Shown here in pieces: positions 809-47,114 of a stretch of 64,000 nucleotides of DNA. Numbering within the stretch: position 1 is the first letter of the stretch; every line of letters starts with the position of its first letter. Below the pieces are notes generated by a model. That model was not told the origin of the DNA and did not search any database. It worked only from the letters and a program-made list of their open reading frames with translations. The translations under genes were made by a program, and so were the position numbers. Source of the stretch: Halorubrum ruber (GTDB lineage Archaea; Halobacteriota; Halobacteria; Halobacteriales; Haloferacaceae); the NCBI RefSeq assembly GCF_018228765.1, contig NZ_CP073695.1, positions 2,341,218-2,405,217 on the forward strand. The letters run 5' to 3'.

Positions 809-1144
809 GTTCGCTTATAAATAGCTGCCAGTCGATCGGTGGTGGCCACCTACAAAGCCCTAGCAGCTCAACTCTACGCAAGTGTCACTGGGACGATGAC
901 CGTAATCCGGCCAGCCGCTCTCTTATAAATACCTGACAGTGGATCGGCGGCGAACACCGCCAAAGCCCCAGCCGCTCGGCCATACGTCGGTGAAGACTGA
1001 CCGACGGCGAACACCGCCAAAGCCTCAGTCGCTCGGCCGTACGTCGGTGAATACCGATTGACGGCGAACACCGCCAAAGCCCCAGCCGCTCGCTTATAAA
1101 CGGTTGCTAGCGGATCGGCGCCGAACACCTCCAAAGCCCCAGCC
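809..1144 (+). repeat. 57-bp tandem repeat array, locus A
   Basis: Four well-kept anchor words AAAGCC(C/T)CAG start at 962, 1019, 1076 and 1133, exactly 57 bases apart. A more diverged unit begins near 809 (anchor at 854). Two units carry TTATAA (about 815 and 1094) and one TTATAAAT (about 922); two middle units have GGC-CATACGTCGG-type sequence there instead. The last unit runs directly into the structured tail at 1145. I see no coding start. The same unit occurs in loci B, C and D of this window. Confidence 0.9.
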
Positions 1145-1387
1145 GCGAGGCGGGCGCACGCTCGCTGCGGTCCTCGGTTAGTCGCTCACTTCGTTCGCTC
1201 CCTCCCTGCGGTCCTTACTTCGCCTGCGCCCGCCTCGCGACTGCCCCTTTGAGTCCCGCCCCGCACAGCAACCGCACCTCACACCTCCCCAGCCTCGCGG
1301 TTCGCGCTCTTTGAGCGCTCACCGCGTCCCTCGCACGTGCTCCTCGCGGCCGTTTAAAAACGGCCGCTCGGAGGCGCGCGCCACCGC
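1145..1387 (+). ncRNA. Structured tail of repeat locus A (candidate RNA)
   Basis: Opens with GCGAGGCGGGCGCA (1145-1158), which pairs perfectly with TGCGCCCGCCTCGC (1225-1238). Next come CTGCCCCTTTGAGTCCCGCC, then a CCGCACCTCACACCTCCCC block, and finally a GC hairpin at 1346-1367 (arms GCGGCCGTTT and AAACGGCCGC). It ends in CGCCACCGC. All blocks recur in order at three other loci. A TATA-like box at about 1094 could start a plus-strand transcript just before the stem. Transcription is inferred. A DNA-level role such as a boundary, or a terminator for the upstream GTPase gene, is equally possible. Confidence 0.5.
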
Positions 1388-15616: not shown

Positions 15617-15660
15617 CTTTATAAACTGACGCCGACGCGAACGCCACCGAAGCCCCAGCC
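15617..15660 (+). repeat. Single 57-bp-type repeat unit, locus B
   Basis: One unit only: TTTATAAACTGACG followed by GAACGCCACCGAAGCCCCAGCC, which is the box-plus-anchor organisation of the arrays at loci A, C and D. It runs directly into the structured tail at 15661. With one copy the locus shows that the tail does not need an array. Confidence 0.75.
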
Positions 15661-15958
15661 GCGAGGCGGGCGCACGCTCGCTGCGCGCTTCAGTCGCTCA
15701 CTTCGTTCGCTCCTTCCAGTGCTTGTGTCGCCTGCGCCCGCCTCGCGGCTGCCCCTTCGAGTCCCGCCCCTCCGGAAGACGTTCCTGCTCGCTTCGCTGC
15801 GCGGGCTGCGACTTCCGTGCTCCCACTCGCTTCGCTCGCGGGAACGCACAGCACCGCGGCCTCACGCCTCCCCAGCCTCGTCGGCCTCCCTCCGGTCGGC
15901 CGACTCCCTCGCGCGTGCGACTCGCGCCCTGCGGGCGCTCGTCGGCACGCGCCACCGC
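15661..15958 (+). ncRNA. Structured tail of repeat locus B (candidate RNA)
   Basis: Stem arms GCGAGGCGGGCGCA (15661-15674) and TGCGCCCGCCTCGC (15733-15746) pair perfectly, as in locus A. The block CTGCCCCTTCGAGTCCCGCC has one change. An extra hairpin-rich module (15770-15850) is inserted, shared with locus D only. Terminal hairpin: GCGCCC-TGC-GGGCGC (15924-15938), inside GCGCGTGC / GCACGCGC. The end is CGCCACCGC. The loop sequences differ from other loci while pairing is kept. Confidence 0.5.
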
Positions 15959-29439: not shown

Positions 29440-29716
29440 GTTGGGAGTTGACTGCGGATCGACCGCGACAGCCGCCAAAGCCCCAGCCGCTCGCTTATAA
29501 ATGTCTGTCTGTAGATTGACGGCGAACACCGCCAAAGCCCCAACCGCTCGCTTATAAATCGTTGACTGCGAATCGACCGCGACCGCCACCAAAGCCCCAG
29601 CCGCTCGCTTATAAATCGTTGACTGCGAATCGACCGCGACCGCCACCAAAGCCCCAGCCGCTCGCTTATAAATCGTTGACTGCGAATCGACCGCGACCGC
29701 CACCAAAGCCCCAGCC
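29440..29716 (+). repeat. 57-bp tandem repeat array, locus C
   Basis: Five anchor words AAAGCCCCA at 29477, 29534, 29591, 29648 and 29705, exactly 57 bases apart. Four units carry CGCTCGCTTATAAAT; the last three units are almost identical, so expansion is recent. The array passes straight into the tail stem at 29717. On the minus strand a 19-codon frame stays open through the units, discussed separately. Confidence 0.92.
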
Positions 29717-30016
29717 GCGAGGACGGCGCACGCTCGCTGTCGCCCGAAAATCGGAGATTTTCGGGATGACGAGACGCCTCCGGCGTCTCGAACCACGCGC
29801 TTCGGTCGTTCGCTTCGCTCACTCCCTCCAGTGCTTGCGTCGCCTGCGCCGTCCTCGCGGCTGCCCCTTTGAGTCCCGCCCCGGCACCGCACAGCCCCGC
29901 ACCTCACACCTCCCCAGCCTCGTCGGCCGGCCTCCGCTGCGCTCCGGCCGGCCGACTCCCTCGCGCGTGCTCCTCGCGGCCGCCTTTGGCGGCCGCTCGC
30001 AGGCACGCGCCACCGC
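29717..30016 (+). ncRNA. Structured tail of repeat locus C (candidate RNA)
   Basis: Stem arms GCGAGGACGGCGCA (29717-29730) and TGCGCCGTCCTCGC (29845-29858): perfect pairing, with two adjacent base pairs changed relative to loci A and B. Two extra perfect hairpins sit in its loop (CCCGAAAATC/GATTTTCGGG; GAGACGCC/GGCGTCTC). The CTGCCCCTTTGAGTCCCGCC and CCGCACCTCACACCTCCCC blocks follow. Terminal hairpin GCGGCCGCC-TTT-GGCGGCCGC (29976-29996) within GCGCGTGC/GCACGCGC. The optional module of loci B and D is absent. Confidence 0.55.
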
Positions 30017-46524: not shown

Positions 46525-46692
46525 CATTTATAAATGGTAGCTGGTGGATCGGCGTTGAACACCGCCAAAGCCCCAACCGCTCGTTTATAAATAGCTGACA
46601 GCAGAACGGCGTTGAACACCTCCAAAGCCCCAACCGCTCGTTTATAAATAGCTGACAGCAGAACGGCGTTGAACACCTCCAAAGCCCCAGCC
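46525..46692 (+). repeat. 57-bp tandem repeat array, locus D
   Basis: Anchors AAAGCCCCA at 46567, 46624 and 46681, again exactly 57 bases apart. Each unit has TTTATAAAT, and units 2 and 3 are almost identical to each other. Internal sequence (GCAGAACGGCGTTGAACACC) differs from loci A and C, so units evolve together within a locus. Runs into the tail stem at 46693. Confidence 0.9.
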
Positions 46693-47003
46693 GCGAGGAC
46701 GGCGCACGCTCGCTGCGGTCCTCGGTCGCTCGCTTCGCTCGCTCCCTGTGGTCCTTACGTCGCCTGCGCCGTCCTCGCGGCTGCCCCTTTGAGTCCCGCC
46801 CCTCTGGAAGACGTTCCTGCTCGCTTCGCTGCGCGGGCTGCGACTTCCGTGCTCCCGCTCGCTTCGCTCGCGGGAACGCACCGCAACCGCACCTCACACC
46901 TCCCCAGCCTCGCGGCTCCCTCCGCTTTGCTCCGGTCGCCGCGTCCCTCGCGCGTGCTCCTCGCGGCCGCCGGGGGCGGCCGCTCGCAGGCACGCGCCAC
47001 CGC
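46693..47003 (+). ncRNA. Structured tail of repeat locus D (candidate RNA)
   Basis: Stem arms GCGAGGACGGCGCA (46693-46706) and TGCGCCGTCCTCGC (46765-46778), the same compensated variant as locus C. CTGCCCCTTTGAGTCCCGCC is intact. The optional module (46801-46882) shared with locus B is present, including a TCCCGC/GCGGGA hairpin. CCGCACCTCACACCTCCCC follows, then terminal hairpin GCGGCCGCC/GGCGGCCGC (46963-46983) inside GCGCGTGC/GCACGCGC. Ends in CGCCACCGC just before TTATTTATAAG (47013), the probable promoter of the ABC gene. Confidence 0.55.
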
Positions 47004-47114
47004 ACTCGGTCGGTTATTTATAAGAGATCGCCGAGTCGAGTACCGCGATCGTCGGAACCCGGAACGGGCCGCCGAAGCCGCCGGATACATGGGGCCTCCG
47101 GCGCTCGTACGCCT

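Follow-up and report, generated by a model that had tools for sequence, protein, structure and literature searches.

The 57-bp arrays of the 64-kb window, meaning the whole stretch of DNA that was analysed, stand about an even chance of being tandem duplications of the left edge of a folded repeat that is high-copy, strictly intergenic and REPIN/BIME-like. The selected folded strand of its hairpin, P1, is the minus strand, opposite to the direction in which the preliminary description had read the arrays. Amplification of the array is specific to the genus Halorubrum, and the P1 core is found across the haloarchaea.

Repeats of period 57 were found by TRF at 934–1146, 29447–29718 and 46550–46694, and the well-kept cores were spaced by exactly 57 bp at locus A (960, 1017, 1074 and 1131), locus C (29475–29703) and locus D (46565, 46622 and 46679), confirming the arrays as first described. 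With up to three mismatches allowed, the window contained 14 matches to the core CCAAAGCCCCAGCCGC, compared with an expectation of 0.69, and shuffled sequence never reached that number. The locus A array (809–1146, plus strand) has a degenerate core at 852 in addition to the four above; this outermost core is 108 bp from the next rather than 114, and is therefore 6 bp out of register. The locus C array (29447–29718, plus strand; TRF score 437) holds five cores, and the locus D array (46528–46694, plus strand; TRF 97 % matches) holds three, each preceded by TTTATAAAT. Locus B was indeed a single unit, with its core at 15647 and TTTATAAA immediately upstream. The TATA-like box noted earlier was supported, at a near-fixed site that is mostly 37–38 bp before the core; two of the five units at locus A lack it, AT boxes being present there only before cores 852, 960 and 1131.

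The element is not confined to the four loci originally reported. Alignments were made of 64 hairpin regions and 49 terminal regions (the latter termed A2). A search with R1, a covariance model built for the minus strand, found at least 150 intergenic copies in the genome, four of them inside the window. All 150 scored candidates matched, at E-values of 1.1e-22 or better that are to be read as rough, so that 150 is a lower bound. Copies were read genome-wide as stretches around the matches, and their orientation was 79 versus 71. Among the 141 copies with flanks, the number of units ranged from one to eight (one in 45, two in 45, three in 22, four in 18 and five to eight in 11). The period, described as invariant, was 57 bp in 166 of 199 steps and 51–69 bp in the remainder, with 21 arrays containing odd steps of 51, 54, 56, 58, 59, 62, 63, 66, 67 or 69 bp. 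The core was the best-conserved part of the unit and the AT box was less conserved. Unit identity was 0.777 within arrays and 0.681 between them (38 arrays), in agreement with the local homogenisation suggested earlier.

The odd steps were often multiples of three (51, 54, 63, 66 and 69). A coding array, with 57 bp corresponding to 19 codons, was considered and rejected: 16 and 14 of 51 arrays were open in two minus-strand frames and fewer in the other frames, too small a number in any frame for the arrays to be coding.

In the orientation of the window, the left part of the element consists of one to eight units, each made up of the AT box TTTATAAAT, approximately 28 nt and the core CACCTCCAAAGCCCCAGCCGC. 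The last array core is the first arm of P1 and the second arm terminates in GCGGCTGCCCCTTTGAGTCCCGCCC, so the proposed joining of the arrays to a structured tail was borne out. To the right of P1 are optional hairpin modules and then a terminal domain, T, in the order CACCTCACACCTCCCCAGCCTCG, hairpin, CTCCCTCGCGCGTGC, hairpin, GCACGCGCCACCGC. A TATA-like box was present no more than 45 bp from the right end in 79 of 123 copies, mostly at a distance of 5–8 bp.

At locus A, P1 occupies 1131–1261 on the minus strand (R1 match 1111–1261, 142.6 bits; fold), its plus-strand 5' arm being the last array core, and domain T, with two variable hairpins, extends over 1275–1387 on the minus strand from CACCTCACACCTCCCCAGCCTCG to GCGCCACCGC (alignment A2). 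The AT-box unit and P1 of locus B together cover 15617–15769 (minus strand; R1 15627–15769, 137.4 bits). At locus C, P1 (29683–29881, minus strand; 100.3 bits) contains an inserted two-hairpin module at about 29742–29800 and is followed by domain T at 29900–30016 on the minus strand, as read against alignment A2. Locus D comprises P1 (46659–46801, minus strand; 160.5 bits; fold z-scores −6.3 for minus and −5.2 for plus), an optional hairpin module at 46812–46889 (GGAAGACGTTCCTGC...GACTTCC plus a GCGAAGC-type hairpin), domain T (46890–47003, minus strand; alignment A2) and the right-end AT box TTATTTATAA at 47010–47024.

The optional module of locus D was present in L010–L016 and not in L017, and a close copy of this GGAAGACGTTCCTGC...GACTTCC module, which at locus D lies between P1 and T, was seen 3' of P1 in another family of the order (L234, genome G071). 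Two-hairpin modules in the apical part of P1, such as that at 29742–29800, recurred at about 5255–5320 of L296 and in L107 and L118 (Halorubrum and Haloarcula), with constant joints (GATGACGA ... GAACCACG) and variable hairpin sequences. They seem to be a nested element that favours one site of insertion, reminiscent of the way SMR-A elements enter PATE palindromes.

The fold of P1 was assessed in 114 copies read by R1. Paired combinations made up 98.5 % of cells, a figure inflated by the fitting of the R1 alignment to the structure, and double-sided changes were present at 24 of 37 pairs (471 cells). The covariation score was 0.349 compared to 0.150 when shuffled, slid controls paired in only 29–45 %, and the same covarying pairs were recovered from an unfitted MAFFT alignment. 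On the minus strand, GA lies opposite GA between 2-bp helices and is near-invariant while the flanking pairs vary freely; P1 keeps these non-Watson–Crick GA/GA tandems as well as a GGG/GGG loop. Because such positions are kept, covariation as pure palindrome correction is argued against. G·T wobble at mostly Watson–Crick pairs numbered 39 on the minus strand and 9 on the plus strand, and at pairs predicted for both strands the minus strand was also ahead, at 34 to 12. Folded as RNA, the minus strand did better than the plus strand at each of the three loci examined (at locus D, −73.7 against −63.5 kcal/mol). The conserved GA/GA mismatches and the asymmetric wobble identify the minus strand as the folded one, so that the array comes after the hairpin when the folded molecule is read in its own direction.

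None of the 141 copies overlapped a called gene, with genes called by a simple codon-usage model. Neighbouring genes were convergent at 41 copies, tandem at 40 and 34 in the two directions, and divergent at 15; divergent sites were scarce relative to a naive 1:2:1 expectation (chi-square approximately 13, calculated by hand). Neither direction was preferred between tandem genes, indicating that the element is not the leader of a particular neighbour. Target-site duplication of TTTATAAA was rejected, as the contexts of the left and right boxes showed a likeness of 12.71 of 22, against 12.67 after shuffling. A clean empty site did not emerge either, and mobility is accordingly only putative. Spread driven by a Y1/RAYT transposase was likewise unsupported. 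Y1 transposase (PF01797) was absent in 10 of 51 genus members, and no P1 was found within approximately 1.5–2.4 kb of three Y1 genes, among them the single one of this genome (approximately 2.4 kb).

Orthologous loci were compared using one genome per species. The gene adjoining locus A was present in all 52 genus members searched, and P1 with a recognisable core was found in 18 of 30 orthologous A regions and in 16 of 25 orthologous D regions. Four in-register units at A were specific to this genome, three others having two units (one with a 67-bp step), and D copies had one to six. P1 persisted at orthologous loci while the array often dropped to one or two units, and the P1 stems at both loci differed by species and were still complementary. 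Copy number was freely variable, both in this genome and at orthologous locus D, and spacing was not random. Random copy number and spacing in related genomes had been named in the preliminary description as counting against promoter arrays, and of the two only the copy number does so. The element can do without the array and the AT box. At orthologous sites its fold is conserved more strongly than a purely selfish repeat would lead one to expect, which points to a function. At the orthologous A loci of three species (L070, L075 and L080), the related AT-rich stretch GTGTCTGAAAATAGGGTTTTGACAGGGCCCAAACGG and its variants abut P1 in place of the AT-box unit, and sharing of this stretch suggests that left flanks may have been exchanged.

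Across the order, 123 of 195 genomes gave a P1 match with R1, and none from outside the order was among the matches listed from a sample of the phylum. Of eight genomes from other genera of the order, G093 carried 80 copies and the others 12–54. An exact scan for GGGTGGGACTGAAAGGGGC likewise gave only haloarchaea among the matches listed, including Haloarcula, Halobaculum, Haladaptatus, Natrinema and Halorussus. Neither a 57-bp array nor the TTTATAAAT box was present in 15 loci read from eight other genera, at one to a few copies each; one of these loci (L242) does show AT-rich sequence about as far from P1. Inverted P1 pairs approximately 26–28 bp apart were found at several loci in other genera, and pairs approximately 120–240 bp apart were noted in G093. 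In L230, a T-like motif, GGCTGGGGAGG, lies between inverted P1 copies and may have given rise to domain T of Halorubrum. A plasmid or phage origin was rejected: plasmids gave five weak matches, the named one being from Halorubrum salinarum, phages gave no match to the element, and the exact P1 arm was absent from 2.9 million viral contigs.

In the interpretation we favour, the element would be a hairpin repeat that is non-autonomous and is recognised in single-stranded form, through its purine-rich minus strand. To P1, the Halorubrum form adds domain T, an AT box at either end and an amplified left edge. The duplicated edge would comprise the AT box, approximately 28 nt and the first P1 arm. 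In the simplest account, a 16-nt arm core borders this edge and also closes the unit, so that arm cores could slip against each other or recombine unequally and thereby add or remove 57-bp steps, with arrays growing, shrinking and being homogenised locally as a by-product of the element. Such a process fits the variable copy number, the local homogenisation and the array-specific step lengths. We infer the single-strand recognition, an earlier spread by an enzyme acting in trans and the mode of duplication. Against this interpretation count the missing Y1 transposase that REPINs would be expected to have and the strength of fold conservation at orthologous sites.

The preliminary description had instead taken the units for promoters in series, or for TBP/TFB platforms, that precede the tail. 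It now seems improbable that TBP and TFB bind these TATA boxes and drive transcription of the tail's plus strand. The box position would place the predicted start approximately 9 nt before the core, making a promoter geometrically possible, and the intergenic 58-bp repeats of halovirus HF2, with proven promoter activity, are a precedent (PMC8707807). Against this, the folded strand is the minus strand, which puts the array behind the tail; conservation is stronger in the core than in the box; the array is missing from the 15 loci of other genera; and the box is absent from 25 of 141 last units, 42 of 199 other units, 12 of 18 orthologous A copies and 9 of 16 orthologous D copies. A comparison of BRE sequences did not discriminate, the gene control being likewise without a BRE. 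Equally doubtful is the idea that P1 is an undescribed haloarchaea-wide structured RNA, to which Halorubrum added one to eight promoter cassettes that tune the expression of each copy; in this RNA, with its 150 or more chromosomal copies in the genome, 2-bp steps and sheared GA tandems would alternate along a purine-rich helix.

The main alternative, somewhat unlikely in our estimation, is a multi-copy family of structured non-coding RNAs that is transcribed from the minus strand and acts in trans, with the array as a variable 3' tail. The strand-specific wobble, sheared GA tandems and compensatory changes, the better folding of the minus strand and the persistence at the same positions throughout the genus are all consistent with such a family. 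It is opposed by the lack of a consistent minus-strand promoter, the right AT box being positioned for a start approximately 16 nt inside the conserved end, by the inverted hairpin pairs on opposite strands in other genera and by the lack of an Rfam match: the window yielded only two tRNAs, and locus D no family at E-values up to 1. We give still less weight to a double-stranded DNA site for a nucleoid protein, gyrase or roadblock, with binding sites multiplied by the array. The strictly intergenic position, scarcity between divergent genes and regular 57-bp step would suit this function, yet it leaves the compensatory pairing and strand asymmetry unexplained, and in most copies there are no more than two units.

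The REPIN/BIME-like interpretation concerns a strongly conserved, strand-specific fold that has at least 150 copies in a single archaeal genome, with relatives across the haloarchaea and without its own transposase or Rfam entry. The motif was not described in the open-licence papers that the literature search covered, a coverage that does not make the absence proof of novelty. The arrays would serve as ready-made variable-number markers and, should one of the units prove active, would let the effect of promoter number be studied as a natural experiment.

Among known systems, the class I intergenic repeats of halovirus HF2 are 58 bp long and have an AT box and proven promoter activity (PMC8707807). 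They resemble the units in length, AT box and haloarchaeal setting, but are dispersed as single copies in a virus and have a conserved motif, CGTCTNNTAGAG, unlike that of the element, which has no phage match. The PATEs (palindrome-associated transposable elements) and SMRs of Haloquadratum are non-coding palindromic repeats that are heterogeneous and without target duplication, and PATE palindromes receive insertions of other small elements (PMC3119063), much as P1 at locus C seems to have been entered by a small module. The present element is far wider in distribution, its mobility is putative, and no relation of P1 to IS605-type ends was found in the surroundings of the three Y1 genes.

Bacterial REPs, BIMEs and REPINs are extragenic palindromes of more than 100 copies that occur as inverted pairs, form some tandem clusters that include flanks and are scarce between divergent genes (PMC3116915, PMC2817692, PMC3733652). 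The element differs in being limited to haloarchaea, in a P1 of approximately 110–130 nt with conserved non-Watson–Crick parts rather than 20–40 bp, in lacking a Y1/RAYT partner, and in having GGGACTCAAAG or GGGACTGAAAG at the P1 foot instead of a GTAG/CGTC tag, as seen from the aligned feet. Inverted P1 pairs were seen in other genera, and Halorubrum has a single P1 with domain T. The likeness to these bacterial repeats lies in the palindromic form, the copy number of at least 150, the absence of overlap with called genes in all 141 copies, the scarcity between divergent genes and the arrangement in tandem clusters.
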